Shown here: positions 45,385-54,968 of the stretch, in pieces
How the letters are laid out: every line of letters begins with the position of its first letter
Position numbering within the stretch: the first letter of the stretch is position 1
Assembly (NCBI RefSeq): GCF_003337555.1
Contig: NZ_QPJK01000019.1
Span: 1-60,577 of the forward strand
From: Pseudorhodoferax soli
GTDB taxonomy: Bacteria > Pseudomonadota > Gammaproteobacteria > Burkholderiales > Burkholderiaceae_C
DNA length: 60,577 nt
Direction of reading: 5' to 3'
Position numbers and translations under genes: made by a program
Notes under the pieces: model-generated
Databases searched by the model: none
What the model saw: only the letters and a program-made list of their open reading frames with translations
What the model was told of the DNA's origin: nothing

Positions 45385-46560
45385 TCAACGGCCCGAGGGC
45401 CGCGGGGCGAGATCGAGCACCGTCATGCCGGCCTTCTTGCGTGGGCGGTCGCGCCAGCGCGGGTTGGCGAAGCTGGCCTCCACGTCAGCGCGGCCTGCGG
45501 CCCAGTGGTCGGCCACGGTCTGGCGGGAGAACTCGTAGTCCTTGGACTGGCCGGCGTGGCTCTTGCTGCGGTGGATCAGGTGCATGACGGTGACCGCGTT
45601 GCAGTTCCCGGCATTGAGCAGGGCCTGGAGGTCCGGGTCGTCCTGCAGCGCCGCAGGCAGCTTGTCGGCCAGGCGCTGGGCGGCCTCGGCCAGGCGCTGC
45701 TGCGCGGCCACGAGATCGGTGTTCATGCGCGTGCGGCTGGCGTACTGGATGTCCTTGGCGCGCTCGGCCACCTCGTCCAGGTTGCGCGGCAGCGCGCCGC
45801 GCGCGCTGAACAAATCGACCTGGAACACCAGCATGTCCAGCACCGTCGGCTGGTCGATCACGTACTGCAACGGCGTGTTGGAGACCACACCGCCGTCCCA
45901 GTACCACTTGCCGTCCACGGGCACCGGCGCGAAGCCCGGCGGCAGCGCGCCGCTGGCCATCACGTGCTGGGGCCCGATGGGGTGGGTGCAAGTCGGGTCG
46001 GCCGAGTCGAAGTAGACCGAGTTGCCGGTCTCCAGCTCCACCGCGCCGACCGACAGCCGCACCTTGCCACGGCAATGCGCGTCGTTGATGCGGTCGAAGT
46101 CGACCAGGCGTTCCAGCGTGCTTCGGAGCGGCGAGGTGTCGTACCAGCTCAGCGCGGCGGCGGTGCCGGCTGGCTGCAACGGCGCCGGCGGGATGCGCGG
46201 CATGAAGAAGCCCGGCACGCCGAAGCTGGCCGTGAGCGCAGCGCTCGAGGCATTGAACAGGCTGCGCGCCTCGTCGCCGTAGCTGGCAGGCAAAGCCGGC
46301 ATGGGCAGGCCGGACGAGACCTGGGCCCAGAACGCACGCAGCTGGTCGACGCGACGCTCCGGAGGGTTCCCGGCGATCAGCGCGGCGTTGATCGCGCCGA
46401 TGGAGACCCCGGCCACCCAGTCGGGCGCCACGCTGCGTTCGGCGAGGGCCTCGTACACGCCGGCCTGGTAGGCGCCGAGGGCGCCGCCGCCCTGCAGTAC
46501 GAGCACGCACTGTTCCGCGGGCGCGGCGACGCTGCGCGCGAGGGAAGGAGATGTAGCCAC
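45385..46560 (-). CDS. Patatin-like phospholipase family protein (with DUF3734-type C-terminus)
   Basis: A 391-residue lipid hydrolase. The oxyanion motif is [14 protein letters not shown], the nucleophile Ser53 sits in GVSIG, and the catalytic Asp is in YWDGGVVSN. The C-terminal third (about 280-375) matches the DUF3734 domain often fused to such patatins. Paired with 3-hydroxybutyrate dehydrogenase it could have a role in storage-polymer or lipid turnover, but that is inference from the neighbour only. No signal peptide. Confidence 0.88.
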
Positions 46561-46663
46561 GGGGAAGCCTTCTGGGATGGCGGAACTGGGGTCCGATTGC
46601 TGCGATGCAGTATAGGGCGCTCACAGCACCTGCCGCGGTGCATGGGATGCAGCGCCGGCTGGC

Positions 46664-46669
46664 CATAAT
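46664..46669 (+). promoter_or_regulatory. Candidate -10 element for the FKBP gene
   Basis: CATAAT matches TATAAT at five of six positions and stands out in GC-rich surroundings, 37 bases before the ATG at 46706. No clear -35 is present. The 145-bp gap also serves the divergent patatin gene. Confidence 0.35.
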
Positions 46670-46705
46670 GGCCGGCTTTGTCCCATGGCTTTCGAAGGAG
46701 ACCGC

Positions 46706-47146
46706 ATGCCCATCCGTACCCCCGCCATCGTGCTCGCCGCACTGCTCGCCAGCACGGCCTGGGGCCAGACCGTCACCACCCTCGATGCCGCCGCCAAAGA
46801 ACCTGGCGCGCAGACCACGGCGTCCGGCCTCGTCTACCGCTCGCTGCAAGACGGCAGCGGCGCCAGCCCTGGTGCCAGCGACAAGGTCAAGGTGCACTAC
46901 CGCGGCACCTTCCTGGACGGCAAGGAGTTCGACAGCTCCTACAAGCGCAACGCGCCGATCGAATTCCCGCTGAATGGCGTGATCCCCTGCTGGACCGAGG
47001 GCGTGCAGAAGATGAAGGTGGGCGGCAAGGCCAAGCTGACCTGCCCGGCCGCAATCGCCTACGGCAGCCGCGGCGCAGGCGGTGTCATCCCGCCGAACGC
47101 CACGCTGCAGTTCGAAGTGGAGCTCCTGGGCATCAACGGCCGCTGA
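46706..47146 (+). CDS. FKBP-type peptidyl-prolyl isomerase, exported
   Basis: A 146-residue FKBP that speeds proline isomerisation during protein folding. A signal peptide (MPIRTPAIVLAALLASTAWG) sends it to the periplasm. The FKBP domain covers residues about 45-145: VKVHYRGTFLDGKEFDSS, FPLNGVIPCWTEGVQ and AYGSRGAGGVIPPNATL, with a complete active site. The ATG at 46706 has GAAGGAG directly upstream; an ATG at 46685 would add 7 charged residues in front of the signal. Confidence 0.92.
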   Translation: MPIRTPAIVLAALLASTAWGQTVTTLDAAAKEPGAQTTASGLVYRSLQDGSGASPGASDKVKVHYRGTFLDGKEFDSSYKRNAPIEFPLNGVIPCWTEGVQKMKVGGKAKLTCPAAIAYGSRGAGGVIPPNATLQFEVELLGINGR

Positions 47147-47163
47147 CCACGGAGACCGGCGCC

Positions 47164-47568
47164 ATGCGCGGCCTGCACCTGACCGCCGACCTGCACGGCT
47201 GCCGCTGCGCACCGCAGTGGCTGGTCGACGCACCGCTGCTCGGCGCCTGGTGCGTGCAGGCCGTGCGCGATGCCGGTCTGCAGCCCGTGGGCCAACTCTT
47301 CCACCGCTTTCCCGCCACAGACCAGGGCCCGGGCGGCGTGACGGCGACGGTGCTGCTGGCCGAATCGCACCTGTGCGTGCACACCTGGCCCGAGCAGGCG
47401 GCCGTGACGCTGGATGTCTACGTCTGCAACTTCGGCGCCGACCACCGTGGCCAGGCCCAGGCCTTGCTCGACGCACTGGTGGCGCGTTTCGCGCCCGAAC
47501 AGGTGCTGCGCCAGGCGCTGGAACGCGGCCTCAGCCCGCCGCCAGGCCCGCCAGGTGGCCGCGGGTGA
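47164..47568 (+). CDS. speD: S-adenosylmethionine decarboxylase proenzyme
   Basis: A 134-residue pyruvoyl enzyme of the small bacterial class (SpeH/SpeD type). It decarboxylates S-adenosylmethionine to the aminopropyl donor for polyamine synthesis. Self-cleavage is expected between Glu67 and Ser68 in LAESHLCVHTWPE, with His73 and Cys88 (LDVYVCNFG) as the processing and proton-transfer residues. Its 3' end overlaps by 38 bases the convergent FAD oxidase gene. That operon also encodes an aminopropyltransferase that would use this enzyme's product. It starts 17 bp after the FKBP gene. Confidence 0.9.
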   Translation: MRGLHLTADLHGCRCAPQWLVDAPLLGAWCVQAVRDAGLQPVGQLFHRFPATDQGPGGVTATVLLAESHLCVHTWPEQAAVTLDVYVCNFGADHRGQAQALLDALVARFAPEQVLRQALERGLSPPPGPPGGRG

Positions 47569-49108
47569 AGGCCTCCTCGAACACCGAGTAACCCGACCAG
47601 TCCGCGTGCGCGAACAGCAGCGGCCCGGACCGCGGCGTCGCCGGGTTGGCGCGCAGGCGCTGCACCAGCCCCGGCACCGGCGTCGCCATGGCGTGGCCAT
47701 AGCGCGTGATCGCGATGTGCGTGGCCTTGGCGCGCAGGTCCGGATGGGCCTCGCGGAGTTCGGCGAACATCTGCTCGGCCCAGTGCTGCCAGGGCTGTTG
47801 CAGCAGCGCGTTGCGCGCATCCGGCGCCAGGCCCAGCGCGTGGTACCAGCTGAGCACCCGCGGGCTGTCCGGGCGGCGCTGTTCCAGGCCCTGGTGGCCC
47901 GCATCGACATAGCCCAGCGCATTGCTGCCGTAGACCACGTTGTCCCAGCTCGGCGCAGCGCCGCCCTGGTCGGCCAGCGCGGCGCGCAGGTGCACGTTGG
48001 CCACCAGCCAGGGGCTGTAGCGCAGCGCCGCGGCCGCCTCGCGCACGCAGGCCGGCGGCTCGGCCAGCACCCGCGCCGCCACGAACACCGGCAGCGCGAC
48101 GATGCAGTGCGTGGCGTCCCACTGTTCGAGCTGGCCGCTGGCCGTGTCCAGCGCCTGCACCGTCACGCCCTGGCGGTGCGTGGCGATGCGGCTGACCACG
48201 CGCGCGCAGCGCAGCCGTTCGCCCAGCGGCTGCGCCAGGCGCTGCGTTAGCCAGGCATTGCCCTCGGGCCAGGTCAGCACCGCCTCACGCTCGGCTTCGG
48301 CGTCGCCAGGCGCATGGAAGCCGTGCCGGCTGGCGAAGTAGTGGATGCCGGCCCAGGCCGACACGCCCGCCAGGCCGGCGCCGAAGTCGTCGCGGCAGCA
48401 GTAGTCCAGATACCAGTGCAGTTGCGCGTCGTCCAGGCCCTCGCGGCCCAGCCACTGGGCCATGGTCTGGGCGTCCAGCGCCGCGTGCTCGGGGGCGAAG
48501 GCCGCGCGCTGCGCCGGCAGGGCGAACGGGGCGCTGCGCATCAGCGCGGCCACGCGCGCGGCGAAGCGCCGGTACTGCGCCAGCGTACCGGCGCCGATGT
48601 CCTGCAGGGGCAGCAGGCCGTCCTGCCAGTGGCCGTTGCGGTAGAGCCGCTCCTGCGGGCTGTGGCACAGGTGGCGTTCGTCATACTCCCAGCGGCCAGC
48701 CACGCGCTGGCGCAGGCCGAACTCTTCGAGCAGGCCCTGCACCTCGTGCGCGGCGTCCATGGGCAAGGGCAGGTAGTGCGCGCCGAGCGGGCAGGGCAGG
48801 CCACCCAGCTGCGTGGCGCGGCTGTTGCCGCCGGCCTGGTCTTCCAGCTCCAGCAGCACGAAGTCCTCGATGCCGCGCTGGCGCAGTGCGCGTGCCGCGG
48901 CCAGGCCGGCCACGCCACCGCCGGCGATGACCACGCGCGTGCGCTGCGTGCGGGCCGGCCTCTGCGCCATGGCCGACCGCAGCAGGTGGCCACGCTCGGG
49001 GCTGGTGCCCACGAAACCGCCGGCCAGTGGCGTGTCCGGCGCGTCGCAGCCCTGGGTTGCCAGCAGGGGCAGCGCGGCGCCGGCCAGCCAGGCGCGCCGC
49101 GAGATCAT
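47531..49108 (-). CDS. Exported FAD-dependent oxidoreductase (amine-oxidase-like)
   Basis: A 525-residue flavoprotein. An RR-containing signal (MISRRAWLAGAALPLLATQGC) with a possible lipobox at Cys24 suggests export by the Tat route with FAD bound, and perhaps lipid anchoring. The FAD motif is VVIAGGGVAGLAAARAL, followed by QAGGNSRA and, near the C-terminus, a motif like that of protoporphyrinogen and amine oxidases. Its place in a polyamine cluster suggests it oxidises an aminopropylated compound, but the substrate is unproven. Its ATG overlaps the stop of the aminopropyltransferase gene by 4 bases. Confidence 0.8.
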   Translation of the reverse strand: MISRRAWLAGAALPLLATQGCDAPDTPLAGGFVGTSPERGHLLRSAMAQRPARTQRTRVVIAGGGVAGLAAARALRQRGIEDFVLLELEDQAGGNSRATQLGGLPCPLGAHYLPLPMDAAHEVQGLLEEFGLRQRVAGRWEYDERHLCHSPQERLYRNGHWQDGLLPLQDIGAGTLAQYRRFAARVAALMRSAPFALPAQRAAFAPEHAALDAQTMAQWLGREGLDDAQLHWYLDYCCRDDFGAGLAGVSAWAGIHYFASRHGFHAPGDAEAEREAVLTWPEGNAWLTQRLAQPLGERLRCARVVSRIATHRQGVTVQALDTASGQLEQWDATHCIVALPVFVAARVLAEPPACVREAAAALRYSPWLVANVHLRAALADQGGAAPSWDNVVYGSNALGYVDAGHQGLEQRRPDSPRVLSWYHALGLAPDARNALLQQPWQHWAEQMFAELREAHPDLRAKATHIAITRYGHAMATPVPGLVQRLRANPATPRSGPLLFAHADWSGYSVFEEAFTRGHLAGLAAG

Positions 49109-50628
49109 GGCTTGGCCTTGCCCCATTCGTCCTCGTAGAGGTTCACGAGCACCTGGTTGGAGAGCCGGTTCACCTCGGCCGGCACGCGCGCCATGTCGCG
49201 CGGAAAGTCGAACAGCGCCGGCACGCCGGCCAGGTCGAGAAAGCGCAGCCCCTCCGGCAGCTGCGGCGGCGTGCGCCAGGGCCGGCGCCCGGCCAGCACG
49301 AAGCCCCATTCGCCGAAGCTCGGCACATGGGCGTGGTAGGGCGCGGTCTTGAGGCCGACGGACTCGATGGTCTGCACCACTGTCCAGAAGCTCTGGCGCG
49401 CCAGCAGCGGTGAGGTCGACTGCACCACGGCGTAGCCGCTGGCCGCCAGGTGCCGGTCCAGCAGCGCGTAGAACGAATTCGTGTAGAGCTTGCCGATGGA
49501 GAAATTGGTCGGGTCGGGAAAGTCCACCACGATCACGTCGTAGATCTCGCGCGCCTCCTCGAGCCAGCGGAAGGCGTCGGTGTTGACCACGGTCACCTTG
49601 GGCGAGCGCAGCGCGTGGCCGTTCAGCGCTGCCAGCGGTTCGTGGTCGCGGAAGAGGCGCGTCATCGCCGGGTCCAGCTCGACCAGCGTGACCCGCTCCA
49701 CCGTGGGGTACTTCAGGATCTCGCGCACGGCCATGCCGTCGCCGCCACCCAGCACCGCCACCTTGCGCGGCGAGCCGTGGGCGGCCATGGCCGGGTGCAC
49801 CAGCGCCTCGTGGTAGCGGTATTCGTCGTGCTCGGCGAACTGCAGATTGCCGTTCAGGTACAGGCGGTGGCCGCTGCGCCCGTGCGTGACGACGATGCGC
49901 TGGTAGGGCGTCTGCGCGCTGAACACGGCGCGGTCCTGGTAGAAGCGGTCCTCGGCCAGCGTGGTGATGTGGTCGGCGCCGACGAAGCCCGTGGCCAGCA
50001 CGGCCAGCGTGAGCCCGCAGGCCAGTGCGTGGGCCTTGAGGCGGCGCAGCTCATGGCGGAACAGCCACAGCGCCCACAGCGCCACCGCCGCGTTCATGAA
50101 GCCGAACAGCAGCCCCGTGCGCACGAGCCCCAGGTGCGGCACCAGCAGCAGCGGGAAGGCGACGGACACCGCCAGCGCGCCCAGGTAGTCGAAGGTCAGC
50201 ACCTGCGAGACCAGGTCTTTGAGCGCCACGTCGCGCTTCAGGATGCGCATCACCAGCGGGATCTCCAGCCCCACGAGCGTGCCGACCAGGAACACCAGCC
50301 CGTACAGCAGCAGGCGGAACGCGTCGGGCGTCCAGGCGTTGGCGATGAACAGGATCGCCGGCAGCGCGCCGCCCACCAGTGCCACCAGCAGCTCGATGCG
50401 CAGGAAGTGCGCGGGCAGCTGGCGCTCGAAGTAGCGCGACAGCCAGGAGCCCACGCCCATCGCGAACAGGTAGCTGCCGATGATGGTGGAGAACTGCAGG
50501 ATGGAGTCGCCCAGCACATAGGAGGCCAGGGCGCCCGCGGCCAGCTCGTAGACCAGCCCGCAGGCGGCCACGACGAAGACGCTGGCCAGCAGCGCGACCG
50601 CCACCGGCCGCGAAGCGGCGGTCGTCAC
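49105..50628 (-). CDS. speE: Membrane-embedded spermidine-synthase-like aminopropyltransferase
   Basis: A 507-residue fusion of about seven transmembrane helices (residues 8-215) with a spermidine-synthase domain (about 235-470). The latter has the dcSAM-binding GGGDGMAVREIL, the acidic pair after VELD, and DFPDPTN in place of the usual D-x-x-DPxGP active-site segment. Soluble SpeE proteins lack the membrane half, so this enzyme probably modifies something at the membrane rather than making bulk spermidine. It overlaps the next gene by 4 bases and follows the DUF350 gene by 4 bp. Confidence 0.88.
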   Translation of the reverse strand: MTTAASRPVAVALLASVFVVAACGLVYELAAGALASYVLGDSILQFSTIIGSYLFAMGVGSWLSRYFERQLPAHFLRIELLVALVGGALPAILFIANAWTPDAFRLLLYGLVFLVGTLVGLEIPLVMRILKRDVALKDLVSQVLTFDYLGALAVSVAFPLLLVPHLGLVRTGLLFGFMNAAVALWALWLFRHELRRLKAHALACGLTLAVLATGFVGADHITTLAEDRFYQDRAVFSAQTPYQRIVVTHGRSGHRLYLNGNLQFAEHDEYRYHEALVHPAMAAHGSPRKVAVLGGGDGMAVREILKYPTVERVTLVELDPAMTRLFRDHEPLAALNGHALRSPKVTVVNTDAFRWLEEAREIYDVIVVDFPDPTNFSIGKLYTNSFYALLDRHLAASGYAVVQSTSPLLARQSFWTVVQTIESVGLKTAPYHAHVPSFGEWGFVLAGRRPWRTPPQLPEGLRFLDLAGVPALFDFPRDMARVPAEVNRLSNQVLVNLYEDEWGKAKP

Positions 50629-50632
50629 GCGC

Positions 50633-50854
50633 TCAGCCGTGCACCGCGGCAGCCACGATGATGGAGATGCCCAGGCACATCGCGCCGACCACGATGCCCA
50701 GCGCCACGTTCTGCTTCTCGACCAGTTCCTGCCACAGGTCGTACGGCGTGATCTTGTCGATCACGACGAAGGCCAGCCAGAACACCACCACGCCGATCAG
50801 CGCGTACAGGATGGAGCCGAAGAAGGCGCCGGGTTTCAACCATTCCAGTCCCAT
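50633..50854 (-). CDS. DUF350 small membrane protein
   Basis: A 73-residue protein with two transmembrane helices (about 12-34 and 50-70) joined by a short polar loop (VIDKITPYDLWQELVEKQN). This is a single DUF350 unit; YjfL of E. coli contains two. DUF350 proteins recur next to spermidine-synthase-like and SPFH genes and are presumed membrane subunits of one complex. Function unknown. It sits 25 bp after the DUF4178 gene. Confidence 0.87.
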   Translation of the reverse strand: MGLEWLKPGAFFGSILYALIGVVVFWLAFVVIDKITPYDLWQELVEKQNVALGIVVGAMCLGISIIVAAAVHG

Positions 50855-50879
50855 GGGGAACCTCCGTCAGAAAGAGTCT

Positions 50880-52391
50880 TCATTTGTGGCCGCCGCCGGT
50901 GCTGAAGCCGCCGTACGAAGCGCCGCTCGAGCGGCTGCTGTTCTGGCTGCAGTTCTCGCGACGGGGATCGCAGTCGTCGCAGCGCGCCACGAGCAGGACG
51001 ACCAGCACCAGCAGCACGACCAGCACGATGGTCGTGCGGCTCATGCCGGACGCCACGCTGAGCGGCGCTGCATCGCTGCGCTTGAACAGGTCCTTGCGGC
51101 TGTCCAGCTTGAACGCCTGGGCCACCGTGGCGCTGTCCAGCTGCCCGCCGGTGGACCAGGTGATCTCGCCCGCCGTCTGCTCCATGGACAGCAGCGTGCG
51201 TCCCTTGGCGAAGTCGCGGTTCTGGGTCTTCTGGCCGCGCTGCACGGGCCAGTAGAACTCGCCGGCCACGTAGTCGGTCTCGGCCGCGTAGCGCTCGCGC
51301 AGTTCGTAGCGGCTGCCCAGGTAGCTCGCGGTGCGCCCGTCGCCCGACAGCTGGGGCGCGCCCGTGGTGGGTGCGACCATGCTCCAGCCGTCCTGCGCAT
51401 CGACGAGGAAGGAGAAGCCACGCTTGGCGTGGTAGAGCAGGTACTCGCTCCAGCCGAAGGTCTCGTCCGGGTCTTCCGGGTCGCGCCCCAGCCGGTGCTG
51501 GAAGCCCACCACCTGCCAGTCCACGCCCTGCAGCCGGCCGATGCTGCCCAGCGCGATGAGCGGGCGCAGCGGCTCGTCCTGCAGCACGTGGCGCAGTTCG
51601 CGACCGATGCCGGCGGTCAGGTCGATCACGGCGTGGCACTGCGCGCAGGTGATGGTCTTGCTGCTGGCCAGCGTCACCTGCACGGGCGCGCCGCACTGCG
51701 GGCAGGCGAACTGGCGCGCGCGCTCTTCCTTCGCGATGGCATCGCGCAGGCCGCGCAGTTGCAAGTCCTCGAGCAGCACCGCCCGGCCGCGCGCCACCAG
51801 CGGCGGCTGGCGGCCGTAGTCGATGCTGAGCACCTCGCCCTCGGCGCTGCGCAGCTCCACCATCTCGAAGGCCTGGCCCAGCGGCGGCAGGTGCGGCAGT
51901 TCGCCTGCGGCAGCGATCAGCGCGGTCTGGTCACGGCTGGCGACGCTGTAGACGGTGCCCGACAGTTCGACGCGCTGGCCCAAGCGCAGCGTGCCGGCCG
52001 CGGGCAAGGCCTGCTGCAGCACGCCGGGCCGGCTGAACACATAGCTGCCGTTGTCCTCGCCCAAGGTGGCCAGGCTGCCGTCGGCGAGCATGGCCTCCCA
52101 TTCGGTCCAGGTGCCGTTGCTGCCGCGGTACTGCAGCCGGCCGATCAGCGTGAAGGCCTGCGCCTGTCCTTTGTCCACCCACTGGCCGCTCGCCTGCAGC
52201 TGCAGCGGGCTGTGGTCGTCGAACAGCTCGGCCATCTTGCCCAGGCGGCGCAGCACCTCGCCATCGCGCACCACGGTGCTCTGGCAGTAGGCGCAGATGG
52301 CGTGCGTGGACTGCGCGTGCAGGAAGGTGACCGGCGCGCCGCAGCCGGGGCAGGGCGCGGTGTAGCTGCGCAAAGGGGTGTCGTTGGCCAT
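50880..52391 (-). CDS. DUF4178 zinc-ribbon membrane protein
   Basis: A 503-residue protein. Two zinc ribbons are visible: CPGCGAP with CAYC at the N-terminus and CPQCGAP with CAQC at about 240-265. Each is followed by a DUF4178 beta-rich domain (about 75-200 and 290-440). One strong transmembrane helix near residues 450-468 (TTIVLVVLLVLVVLLVA) leaves a short Ser/Gly-rich tail. Such proteins resemble the zinc-ribbon membrane partners of YdjI-like SPFH proteins in Bacillus. It probably presents its large domain in the cytoplasm. Confidence 0.87.
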   Translation of the reverse strand: MANDTPLRSYTAPCPGCGAPVTFLHAQSTHAICAYCQSTVVRDGEVLRRLGKMAELFDDHSPLQLQASGQWVDKGQAQAFTLIGRLQYRGSNGTWTEWEAMLADGSLATLGEDNGSYVFSRPGVLQQALPAAGTLRLGQRVELSGTVYSVASRDQTALIAAAGELPHLPPLGQAFEMVELRSAEGEVLSIDYGRQPPLVARGRAVLLEDLQLRGLRDAIAKEERARQFACPQCGAPVQVTLASSKTITCAQCHAVIDLTAGIGRELRHVLQDEPLRPLIALGSIGRLQGVDWQVVGFQHRLGRDPEDPDETFGWSEYLLYHAKRGFSFLVDAQDGWSMVAPTTGAPQLSGDGRTASYLGSRYELRERYAAETDYVAGEFYWPVQRGQKTQNRDFAKGRTLLSMEQTAGEITWSTGGQLDSATVAQAFKLDSRKDLFKRSDAAPLSVASGMSRTTIVLVVLLVLVVLLVARCDDCDPRRENCSQNSSRSSGASYGGFSTGGGHK

Positions 52392-52458
52392 TGCAGGCGT
52401 GCGTCGGGCGCGCGGCGGGCCGGGCCCGTGGGGCCGGGCCGCTGCCGCGCCGTCGGGA

Positions 52459-53493
52459 TCAGACCAGCTTCTTGAGCAACTCGGCCTTCTTGCTGGCGAA
52501 CTCTTCGTCCGTCAGGATGCCCTTGGCCTTGAGTTCGCCCAGCCGCTCCAGCGTGGCCAGCACGTCCTCCGGCTTGAGCGCCGCGGCGGCGGCCGCAGGC
52601 ACGGCCGGGGCCGGCTGCTGCAAGCCCTGCTGCAGGTTCTGCGCCAGCACCTGGCCCAGCGCCACGCCGGCGCCCAGGCCCATGGCGTCGCCGGCCACGC
52701 CGCTGCCGCCACCCGCGCCCTCGGCGAACTTCGGGATCGCCTGGGCGGTCTGGTACTGCATGAACTTGCCCATGTCGTTGCCCACCATGCCCATGCCGAT
52801 CTTCTGGTCCAGGATCTTCTGCAGCTCCTCGGGCAGCGAGATGCTTTGCACCGTCATGCCGTCGAGCTGCAGGCCGATGGCCGCGAAGGCCGGCCCCAGC
52901 TCGGCCGCCAGGGCCTTGGCGAATTCGATCTGGTTGGCCGCCAGGTCGAGAAACGGGATGCCGCTCTGCGCGATGCCGTCCGACAGGTGCTGCAGCACCA
53001 GCCCGCGCAGCTGGCCATCGAGGTCGGCCGTGCCGTAGGCAGCGCGCGTGCCCGAGATCTCGGTGTGGAACAGCCTGGGGTCGGCGATGCGGAAGCTGTA
53101 GTTGCCGAAGGCGCGCAGCCGCACCGCGCCGAAGTCCTTGTCGCGGATCGTCACTGGCTGGGGCGTGCCCCACTTCTGGTCGACCTGCTGGCGCGTGCTG
53201 AAGAAGTAGACATCGCTCTTGAACGGCGACTCGAACAGCTTGTCCCAGTTCTTGAGGTTGGTCAGCAGCGGAATGTTCTGCGTGGTGAGCTTGTACAGGC
53301 CCGGGCCGAACACATCGGCCACCTTGCCCTCGTTCACGAAGACCGCCATCTGCGACTCGCGCACGGTCAGCGAGGCGCCGTACTGGATCTCCATGTCCTG
53401 CATGGGAAAGCGCCACGCCAGCGTGCCGTCGCCGTCCTCCGTCCACTGGATGACGTCGATGAATTGCTTGCGGATGAAGTCCATCAAGGCCAT
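52459..53493 (-). CDS. SPFH (YdjI/virion-core-like) protein with SHOCT tail
   Basis: A 344-residue protein of the SPFH/band-7 superfamily, subgroup 'virion core protein' (YdjI of Bacillus subtilis). The SPFH domain spans about 15-230 (SQMAVFVNEGKVADVFGPG). A Gly/Ala-rich segment and a C-terminal SHOCT motif (KAKGILTDEEFASKKAELLKKL) follow. No transmembrane helix is present, so it is probably recruited to the membrane by partners. It is the first gene of the minus-strand operon that continues through DUF4178, DUF350, the aminopropyltransferase and the FAD oxidase. Confidence 0.9.
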   Translation of the reverse strand: MALMDFIRKQFIDVIQWTEDGDGTLAWRFPMQDMEIQYGASLTVRESQMAVFVNEGKVADVFGPGLYKLTTQNIPLLTNLKNWDKLFESPFKSDVYFFSTRQQVDQKWGTPQPVTIRDKDFGAVRLRAFGNYSFRIADPRLFHTEISGTRAAYGTADLDGQLRGLVLQHLSDGIAQSGIPFLDLAANQIEFAKALAAELGPAFAAIGLQLDGMTVQSISLPEELQKILDQKIGMGMVGNDMGKFMQYQTAQAIPKFAEGAGGGSGVAGDAMGLGAGVALGQVLAQNLQQGLQQPAPAVPAAAAAALKPEDVLATLERLGELKAKGILTDEEFASKKAELLKKLV

Positions 53494-53545
53494 GGTGCGC
53501 TCCTCCTGGTTCTGGGTCGCGGGATCATAGCCCCGTGCAGTGGCG

Positions 53546-53962
53546 CTATTGCGCGTCGTACACCGTGGCCAGCGAGCGGAAGCCCTTGACCTCGATCGGG
53601 TTGCCGAACGGGTCGAGGAAGAACATGGTCCATTGCTCGCCGGGCTGGCCTTCGAAGCGGCCTTGCGGCTCCAGCACGAACTCGGTGCCGGCGTCGGTGA
53701 GCCGCTTCGCCATGGCCTGCCAGTCGGCCAGTTGCAGGATCAGGCCGAAGTGCGGCATCGGCACCAGCTTGTCGCCCACATGGCCGGTGCGCGCGGTGGC
53801 GAAGGGCTCGCCCAGGTGCAGCGAGATCTGGTGGCCGAAGAAGTCGAAGTCGACCCAGGTGTCGGTGCTGCGGCCTTCGCGGCAGCCCAGCACGCCGCCA
53901 TAGAAACGGCGCGCCGCATCCAGGTCACGGACATTGAAGGCGAGGTGGAAGATGCTTTGCAT
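53546..53962 (-). CDS. VOC-family (glyoxalase-like) protein
   Basis: A 138-residue vicinal-oxygen-chelate protein with two beta-alpha-beta-beta-beta units (FHLAFNVRDLDAARRFYGGV and MPHFGLILQLADWQ). Metal-ligand candidates are His6, a Glu near the C-terminus (NPIEVKGF) and His75 of PHFG. The family includes dioxygenases, isomerases and resistance proteins; the substrate cannot be told. It lies upstream of the SPFH operon on the same strand, 52 bp apart, and might share its promoter. It is divergent from the MBL-fold gene (64 bp). Confidence 0.83.
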   Translation of the reverse strand: MQSIFHLAFNVRDLDAARRFYGGVLGCREGRSTDTWVDFDFFGHQISLHLGEPFATARTGHVGDKLVPMPHFGLILQLADWQAMAKRLTDAGTEFVLEPQGRFEGQPGEQWTMFFLDPFGNPIEVKGFRSLATVYDAQ

Positions 53963-54026
53963 GGGACGCCATTGTGCGCTGGCGCGACAGCACACCGCGG
54001 GTGCCCTCTGGTATGGTGCCGAGCCC

Positions 54027-54968
54027 ATGGACGCCCCCCAGACCGCTGCCCGCGACCCTGCGCCACGTGCCGGCGTGCAGCACGTCACCTTCGGCCGCGT
54101 CTCGGTCTTCTTCGGCGAGCGCAACGGCAAGTACCCCGATGGCAACCAGGTGCTGGTGCGCGGCACGGACACGCGCGCCGCCATGGACACGCCCATCGTC
54201 TCCAACTTCATCGGCGCGGCCTTCGACGCCAGCGAGCTCGTGGTCATGGGCCATGTGCACGAGGACCACATGGCCGGGCTGCACCGCCTGCCCCGGGCCA
54301 GCGTGCACGTGCACCATGCGGACCTGCCGGCGGCGCAGAGCTGGCCGGGCCTGCTCGCGGCCATGGGCGTGGCCGACGCGGCGCTCGGCCAGGAGGTGCT
54401 GGCGCGCTACCAGCGCGAGTTCTTCTACGGGCCGCGGCCGGATGCCCAGGGCTATGCCGACGGTGCCTGCTGGGAACTGGGCGGCTGCAGGATCCGCGCC
54501 TTCCACATGCCGGGCCACACGGCTGGCCACACCGTGCTGCTGGTCGAGCCCGAAGGCGTGGCCTTCATCGGCGACATCGACCTGAGCGGCTTCGGCCCCT
54601 ACTACGGCGATGCGGGCTCCAACCTGCGCGATTTCCGCGCCACCTTGCAGCGGCTGCCGGAGCTGCCGGCCAAGGTCTGGGTGACCTCGCACCACCGCGG
54701 CGTCTACACCGAGCGCGACCGCTTCCTGCGCGACCTGGCCGCCTTCGCGGCCAAAATCGACGAACGCAGCGCGCGGCTGCGCGCGCTGCTGGCCGAGTCG
54801 CCGAAGACGCTGGCCCAGCTGGTCGCGTGCCGGCTGCTGTATCCGCCGGGCCACCAGAGCTGGTGGGTCGATTCCGCCGAGGCCCGCACCATCGTGCAGC
54901 ACCTGGACGAACTGCAAGCCGCCGGCCAGGTGCAGGTCGATGCCGAGGGCGTCTGGCGGCTCTGCTGA
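54027..54968 (+). CDS. MBL-fold metallo-hydrolase
   Basis: A 313-residue metallo-beta-lactamase-fold hydrolase. The dinuclear-metal motif HVHEDH is at residues 76-81, with GHTAGHT supplying the next His and FIGDIDLSGF the bridging Asp. A C-terminal helical extension (about 225-313) is of the type seen in RNase Z/glyoxalase II relatives. Substrate unknown. A -10-like GGTATGGT lies about 15 bases before the ATG at 54027, implying a very short leader. Its stop is 3 bp from the convergent dioxygenase stop. Confidence 0.85.
   Translation: MDAPQTAARDPAPRAGVQHVTFGRVSVFFGERNGKYPDGNQVLVRGTDTRAAMDTPIVSNFIGAAFDASELVVMGHVHEDHMAGLHRLPRASVHVHHADLPAAQSWPGLLAAMGVADAALGQEVLARYQREFFYGPRPDAQGYADGACWELGGCRIRAFHMPGHTAGHTVLLVEPEGVAFIGDIDLSGFGPYYGDAGSNLRDFRATLQRLPELPAKVWVTSHHRGVYTERDRFLRDLAAFAAKIDERSARLRALLAESPKTLAQLVACRLLYPPGHQSWWVDSAEARTIVQHLDELQAAGQVQVDAEGVWRLC

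Follow-up and report, generated by a model that had tools for sequence, protein, structure and literature searches.

The window analysed here, 60,577 nucleotides of Pseudorhodoferax soli (positions 1 to 60,577 of NZ_QPJK01000019.1, contig 19 of an 8.16-Mb genome), carries a compact cluster of six genes, a set conserved in bacteria of soil and water, encoding a membrane aminopropyltransferase, a flavin amine-oxidase-like protein (hereafter the flavoenzyme), an S-adenosylmethionine (SAM) decarboxylase, and an SPFH, a DUF4178 and a DUF350 protein. That these genes form one system, as a reading of the sequence alone (the sequence-only reading) had proposed, is strongly supported within the order Burkholderiales by order-wide co-occurrence and a conserved neighbourhood. 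Our preferred interpretation, which we hold tentatively, is a single membrane system dependent on decarboxylated SAM, in which an aminopropyl group would be placed on an amine acceptor other than free cytosolic putrescine, with the flavoenzyme as oxidizing partner and the SPFH protein contributing to a platform.

Five of the genes are packed on the minus strand and converge on the sixth, as had been described from the sequence; coordinates and Pfam matches (values in brackets) confirm all six:

52459-53493, minus strand: SPFH/Band_7_1 protein of the YdjI type with a C-terminal SHOCT domain, 344 residues, first gene of the operon (PF13421, 4.3e-77; PF09851, 9.7e-09)
50880-52391, minus strand: DUF4178 protein with a double zinc ribbon, 503 residues (PF13785, 4.4e-29, in two stretches)
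50633-50854, minus strand: short DUF350 protein of the YjfL type, 73 residues (PF03994, 4.8e-15)
49105-50628, minus strand: membrane aminopropyltransferase, seven helices and a spermidine-synthase fold, 507 residues (Spermine_synth, 9.9e-37; NF002956)
47531-49108, minus strand: flavin amine-oxidase-like protein, 525 residues (PF01593, Amino_oxidase, 9.2e-22)
47164-47568, plus strand: class 1b SAM decarboxylase, 134 residues, convergent (PF02675, AdoMet_dc, 2.7e-25)
53524-53529, minus strand: possible, weakly indicated -10 element TATGAT, 30 bases 5' of the SPFH start

The minus-strand genes are separated by 67 (SPFH/DUF4178), 25 (DUF4178/DUF350) and 4 bases (DUF350/transferase); the transferase and flavoenzyme genes overlap by 4 bases, and the flavoenzyme and decarboxylase genes by 38 bases, tail to tail.

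Co-occurrence and neighbourhood within the order

A fairer count than that of the named loci (below) comes from 150 genomes drawn evenly from the order, in which a membrane transferase was called where NF002956 (PRK03612) matched above its cut-off. It is present in 24 of them, and DUF4178 is present in 24, the identical set. Seven families hold both states (labels f1, f3, f4, f8, f15, f21 and f35), and in each of them transferase and DUF4178 change together; common ancestry alone thus does not explain their match. This is a better argument than Fisher p-values, which overstate independence since the genomes are related. AdoMet_dc, found in 52 of the 150 genomes, accompanies the membrane transferase in all 24 (21/21 where a SpeE-like enzyme is missing) and a SpeE-like enzyme in all 27 genomes that have only the latter, and occurs in 1 of the 99 with neither, as a 37-bit match with an internal stop; 'SpeE-like' here denotes proteins whose C-terminal part matches NF002956 at 139 to 178 bits, and many genomes counted with neither enzyme still have weaker matches of the major facilitator superfamily (MFS) type. 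The YdjI-type SPFH protein (PF13421 above 200 bits) is found in 24/24 transferase genomes versus 10/126 others. Mutual exclusion of membrane and soluble transferases is not significant (SpeE-like in 3/24 versus 27/126 genomes, p = 0.41).

Three of the genomes (G093, G133 and G105) carry a separate pair of decarboxylase and soluble SpeE besides the membrane operon (L063:6785-7903, L064:2699-3922 and L062:4868-6751; L numbers denote loci), and in these the sole decarboxylase match sits beside SpeE.

The neighbourhood survey that the sequence-only reading had suggested was run across the order and the named relatives of the transferase, and finds the genes mostly together. In the order set (23 fetched loci plus the window, n = 24, 20-kb stretches), DUF4178 lies in the neighbourhood of 23, DUF350, long or short, of 22, the flavoenzyme of 20 by clustering and 21 by tblastn, and SPFH of 17. 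Two layouts occur, the collinear one of the window and a divergent one with flavoenzyme and transferase on one side and DUF350, SPFH, DUF4178 and decarboxylase on the other. The named loci comprise the top 80 out of at least 592, a choice biased towards close relatives, the closest found among them being Pseudorhodoferax sp. Leaf274 with 95% identity in the transferase. Of the named loci, 62 exceed 18 kb; 60 of these have the flavoenzyme, 60 DUF350, 59 DUF4178 and 54 SPFH (including one 38% match about 9 kb distant, L134); over all 80, short ones included, the counts are 75, 77, 76 and 64, with the decarboxylase in 23.

Insertions between the DUF350 and transferase genes are seen in some Comamonadaceae (L066:2933-9947, L073:5383-7269, L076:7837-9594); the first comprises a type III restriction-modification set together with a Schlafen/AlbA_2 gene and the others are AlbA_2 genes, so the operon seems to serve as a landing place for defence genes. 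Between transferase and flavoenzyme, an MHYT/PAS hybrid histidine kinase and an HD-type response regulator are inserted at L073:11594-16386, L076:11549-16383 and L078:11609-16314, and at least the regulator at L127:11622-12779 (domain scans covered the kinase in L073 and the regulator in L073 and L127); this insert is a possible signal input to the system. A gene for a PlsY-type glycerol-3-phosphate acyltransferase lies within the stretch in 4/24 order loci (L040:14566-15168 and L044:6688-7383, identified by scan; L046 and L050, by membership in the same cluster).

The membrane transferase

The transferase scores 698.7 bits against NCBIfam PRK03612/NF002956 (cut-off 472), and 149.1 bits against TIGR00417, below the cut-off of 249.55. 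Its structure model (predicted local distance difference test, pLDDT, 86.1; predicted template modelling score, pTM, 0.60, with the domain arrangement less certain) contains seven long helices (7-39, 42-66, 71-99, 101-130, 136-166, 168-189 and 197-216), in agreement with the seven membrane helices read from the sequence, and a short eighth one (218-229) preceding the transferase domain. The best Foldseek match is the triamine/agmatine enzyme of Thermus (1uir; E 2.6e-17, template modelling score by target 0.72); a Pyrobaculum enzyme also matches (E 2.6e-15). Relative to the soluble spermidine synthase and triamine/agmatine aminopropyltransferase structures (1uir, 3anx), the window enzyme has the same fold and catalytic residues, but adds the seven-helix domain and differs in its acceptor-side residues and its predicted side of the membrane.

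The residue comparison covers 104 membrane sequences and only 9 soluble SpeE sequences. Both groups (103 or 104 of the 104 membrane and at least 8 of the 9 soluble sequences) share Y272, H273, E274, GGGDG, D319, D351, D369, D372, P436, G439 and W441; among these, GGGDG, D319, D351, D369, D372 and Y272 are the donor-binding and catalytic residues of spermidine synthases. In contrast, R271, F370, Q403, T405, H432, F438 and E440 are just as invariant among the membrane sequences and occur in none or one of the 9 soluble ones, and N259 differs in a similarly fixed manner. This pattern of shared and fixed-different residues strongly supports a donor and catalytic site that is kept and an acceptor side that is altered; of the 'altered active-site segment' of the sequence-only reading, the acceptor-side part holds, whereas the donor and catalytic residues are intact. 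Conservation is as high in the membrane part as in the enzyme part (63/208 versus 74/271 invariant positions in 24 sequences). The former includes 20 invariant residues that are polar or charged, counting Cys and Tyr, which argues that it is not a mere anchor.

The side on which the transferase domain lies can be predicted from the loops between the helices. Averaged over 122 distinct homologues, Lys and Arg residues number 2.82, 3.86 and 2.89 in the loops that follow helices 2, 4 and 6 and only 0.07, 0.00 and 0.12 in those that follow helices 1, 3 and 5, and the resulting N-in/C-out pattern is seen in 122/122 homologues and in 25/25 cluster representatives at 70% identity. Loops rich in Lys and Arg lie on the cytosolic side (the positive-inside rule); the transferase domain is thus predicted to be periplasmic. 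The prediction depends on helix 7 crossing the membrane, whose best 19-residue hydropathy is at least 1.29 in all homologues, with a median of 1.92. Cys content was rejected as a sign of periplasmic location: it is 0.05 per 100 residues in the transferase part against 0.92 in its own membrane part, but also 0.02 in the presumably cytosolic SPFH proteins.

The decarboxylase and the polyamine genes of the host

The decarboxylase scores 74.4 bits against TIGR03330, just below the cut-off of 75.65, and in the alignment keeps ESH, HTWPE and the C. The passages on class 1b AdoMet decarboxylases in PMC10407285 describe a Ser (the pyruvoyl residue), a His and a Cys for processing and catalysis, and a Pro that separates them from arginine decarboxylases; the P of HTWPE probably corresponds to this diagnostic residue. 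That the decarboxylase makes the aminopropyl donor, decarboxylated SAM, as had been put forward from the sequence, is strongly supported by these motifs. A neofunctionalized ornithine or arginine decarboxylase of the kind described in parts of PMC10407285 was considered because soluble SpeE was not found in the host; it is less likely, as the S, H and C and the Pro of HTWPE are kept and the gene tracks aminopropyltransferases across genomes.

The host genome has a single AdoMet_dc match and a single strong Spermine_synth match, both in the cluster. It further has two PF02784 genes, LysA and an exosortase-associated decarboxylase, and one OKR-type decarboxylase. A second, weak Spermine_synth match is a 916-residue MFS/spermidine-synthase-like protein (L061:5922-8672, contig C1), in which two tandem membrane units are followed by a distant spermidine-synthase-like domain, with a charge pattern that is also N-in.

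The flavoenzyme

The flavoenzyme starts with a twin-arginine motif and a lipobox (MISRRAWLAG...LLATQGC). A pattern search detects the two together in 54 of 71 relatives; of the 17 it missed, some do have both motifs on visual inspection (L123, L134 and L141 among them), some have the RR without a lipobox (L037, L049, L050 and L165), and in others the anchor is misplaced. Its model (pLDDT 90.9) has putrescine oxidase 2yg6 as best fold match (E 3.8e-25), with monoamine oxidase (8p84) and protoporphyrinogen oxidase as further fold neighbours and 15-20% identity among the matches listed. The start and the predicted fold support the earlier assignment as an exported flavin adenine dinucleotide (FAD) oxidase-like protein. 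It differs from 2yg6 and 8p84 in being a predicted exported lipoprotein, in lacking a conserved lysine (see below) and in having GGN where GGR is usual in the flavin amine-oxidase family.

The SPFH, DUF4178 and DUF350 proteins

By hydropathy, the SPFH protein has no membrane segment (no 19-residue window above 1.6), the DUF4178 protein has one C-terminal helix (453-471), and the DUF350 protein two. The DUF4178 protein further carries CxxC motifs at 14, 33, 230 and 249, forming two zinc ribbons. The likeness to Bacillus YdjGHI proposed from the sequence is borne out for YdjI, through PF13421, which also matches Bacillus subtilis among the control genomes; it does not extend to the C-terminus of the SPFH protein, which ends in SHOCT, the zinc ribbons being in the DUF4178 protein instead. 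YdjI, part of the PspA-YdjGHI membrane-stress complex of B. subtilis, has no membrane anchor according to the passages on it in PMC8581546 and depends on the membrane proteins YdjG and YdjH to reach the membrane; the lack of an anchor is shared by the SPFH protein of the window. YdjG has two zinc ribbons and a membrane segment, as stated in a passage of Ravi et al. (2024; PMC11237479), and by analogy the DUF4178 protein, with its two zinc ribbons and one helix, could play its part. Unlike YdjGHI, the SPFH protein of the window ends in SHOCT and not in a zinc finger, PspA is missing, the ten genes scanned include no TPM-domain protein, and polyamine-type enzymes are added.

Comparison with published operons

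The sequence-only reading knew of no function for the set as a whole. Operons of this kind have in fact been described: the passages of Ravi et al. (2024; PMC11237479) that deal with them report a seven-transmembrane (7TM) spermidine synthase with DUF350, DUF4178 and a PspA-CesT/Tir pair, list variants that include band-7/SHOCT, AdoMet decarboxylase and polyamine oxidase, and propose polyamine monitoring or aminopropylation of other substrates. The window shares with them the 7TM spermidine synthase, DUF350 and DUF4178, and represents a PspA-free, SPFH-SHOCT, exported-oxidase variant. It lacks the PspA-CesT/Tir pair, the core of that group, and the host genome has no PF04012 match at E 0.001, in a search that matches 9 of 14 control genomes; the locus is therefore a PspA-free form. 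Where those passages describe a replacement of this pair by band-7, two transmembrane helices and SHOCT, the window has band-7 and SHOCT in an SPFH protein without a membrane segment by hydropathy; and like the band-7 variant with AdoMet decarboxylase and polyamine oxidase, it has PF02675 and PF01593 genes, of which the former is convergent, not co-directional, and the latter encodes a putative oxidase. What further sets the window apart are the two zinc ribbons and the helix of its DUF4178 protein, and a flavoenzyme with twin-arginine and lipoprotein signals directly downstream. An ATP-grasp glutathionylspermidine-synthetase-like gene, which marks a third group in the same passages, is not found among the ten genes at 45385-54968 (the rest of the genome was not searched).

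The PspA version itself is found outside the order: PspA adjoins the transferase in all three outside loci scanned (L170, from the same class, and L172 and L177, from the same phylum), together with CesT_Tir_1 and DUF4178 in L172 and with DUF2170 in L177.

What is added here are the co-occurrence counts, the PspA-free host, the intact donor and catalytic site with an invariantly altered acceptor side, the putrescine-oxidase-like fold predicted for the flavoenzyme, and the charge pattern that would place the transferase domain in the periplasm, a location not found stated in the passages of Ravi et al. on these operons (PMC11237479). A literature search with little coverage of subscription journals found no functional study of the gene set.

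A tentative mechanism and its alternatives

In the mechanism we tentatively favour, the decarboxylase supplies decarboxylated SAM as donor, and the 7TM enzyme would transfer the aminopropyl group to an amine that is not free cytosolic putrescine; in the simplest case this amine would sit on a membrane component, such as a lipid head group or an envelope peptide. The transferase domain would work on the periplasmic face of the inner membrane, and the flavoenzyme, as a lipoprotein exported by the twin-arginine pathway to the same face, may oxidize the product or its amine. A membrane platform resembling YdjGHI, on which the enzymes are positioned and regulated, could be made up of the SPFH, zinc-ribbon DUF4178 and DUF350 proteins, and the whole might tune envelope charge or membrane state in a host without PspA. 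A bolder form, possible though somewhat unlikely, is that the 7TM domain itself passes decarboxylated SAM across the inner membrane, the aminopropyl group is added to an amine of the outer leaflet or the envelope, and the oxidase reverses or matures this mark, independently of PspA and of free polyamines; if true, the envelope would bear a positive charge that can be written and erased under the direction of an SPFH/zinc-ribbon platform.

Several observations weigh against the mechanism we favour. The enzyme is the only strong aminopropyltransferase of the host genome, which also fits plain spermidine synthesis. Periplasmic catalysis needs decarboxylated SAM to cross the membrane, for which we know of no precedent. 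The decarboxylase is tied to the system at the level of the genome more than of the operon, since it lies near the transferase in only 14/24 order loci (13 within the stretch, the 14th just outside) and within the flanks of only 20/62 long named loci; SPFH falls outside the fetched stretch in 7/24 order loci (about 21 kb off in one, elsewhere in six). No lysine column reaches 90% in 28 flavoenzyme sequences, although a catalytic lysine near the FAD is a feature of polyamine and monoamine oxidases; because of this and of the GGN in place of GGR, its chemistry may differ from that of known amine oxidases. Beyond the order, the set is also looser. Among 200 genomes sampled across the phylum (including three of the host's family), 22 have the membrane transferase; in 16 loci fetched of the 19 from outside the family, tblastn with order homologues finds the decarboxylase in 9, DUF4178 in 4 (Pfam adds L172), and SPFH and the flavoenzyme in 1 each, though divergence may hide some partners. 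The form with SPFH and flavoenzyme thus looks confined to a part of the phylum near the order.

An unlikely but serious alternative is that the enzyme is the host's membrane-tethered synthase of spermidine or another free polyamine, converting putrescine to spermidine with its partners as regulators. The host's sole strong Spermine_synth match and sole AdoMet_dc match are then readily accounted for, the catalytic Asp pair and Tyr are kept, the OKR-type decarboxylase could supply the diamine, and soluble SpeE is neither avoided nor favoured by the membrane enzyme in the order sample. A carboxyspermidine-type decarboxylase, which would presumably match PF02784, is not seen among the host's genes of this family, these being LysA and the exosortase-associated enzyme. 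However, the acceptor side differs from soluble SpeE in a fixed manner (with 9 soluble sequences for comparison), the predicted topology points away from the cytosol, DUF4178 is a partner in every transferase-bearing genome sampled from the order, and three genomes hold both enzymes. Reportedly, by its title, the 2019 study of Li and colleagues (doi 10.1042/BCJ20190561) concerns a polyamine-independent role of AdoMet decarboxylase; the family tested there may be NF002956, that of the window. A passage in PMC12803844, citing Li et al. 2019, states that bacterial membrane-fused transferases are experimentally uninvolved in spermidine and spermine synthesis; the type referred to resembles the window in its membrane-fused transferase and, going by the title, in a decarboxylase with a role beyond polyamines.

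The same published negative (PMC12803844, in that passage) applies to a quite unlikely variant, in which a free polyamine is made on or across the membrane for the surface, as a spermidine-like outer-membrane coat, and the flavoenzyme degrades the excess. The predicted periplasmic transferase domain and the exported amine-oxidase-like partner with its putrescine-oxidase fold would suit it, as would the surface spermidine reported, by the title of a paper, for Pseudomonas aeruginosa; the acceptor-site changes do not, and no polyamine exporter is present among the ten genes scanned at 45385-54968. Improbable altogether is a membrane protein that is no longer catalytic, but senses or transports decarboxylated SAM or polyamines and signals via SPFH and DUF4178: the conservation of the membrane part with its 20 invariant polar or charged residues, and the kinase and regulator between transferase and flavoenzyme in some relatives, are consistent with it, but a loss of catalysis would not preserve the checked catalytic and donor residues, which 103 or 104 of the 104 sequences retain.

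Polyamine synthesis is the role usually assigned to decarboxylated SAM. In the present case, the decarboxylase persists in genomes in which the only strong aminopropyltransferase is membrane-bound, altered on its acceptor side, and, in the order sampled, always accompanied by the uncharacterised DUF4178. The acceptor, once found, would give the DUF4178, DUF350 and YdjI-type SPFH proteins a chemistry, and might reveal a new covalent modification of bacterial membranes. The predicted sidedness makes the question testable, and a periplasmic aminopropyltransferase is the point most worth testing.

Flanking genes and upstream sequence

The interval given for the cluster in the sequence-only reading began at 46706, which falls on an FKBP isomerase gene (46685/46706-47146). 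This gene is a chance neighbour and not part of the operon: it is near the operon in 1 of the 80 named loci. By the same count, the patatin gene (45385-46560; 1/80), a glyoxalase-like gene (53546-53962; 2/80) and a metallo-beta-lactamase-fold gene (54027-54968; 0/80) were rejected as parts of the system. Upstream of 58 dereplicated operons, a sigma-E-like promoter pattern finds no match, and the idea of a stress-sigma promoter was dropped; elements similar to TATGAT, again a weak indication, are GTATCAT in 15, CTATGAT in 9 and GCAATAT in 10 of these loci. The patatin-like phospholipase that adjoins the cluster also carries DUF3734.

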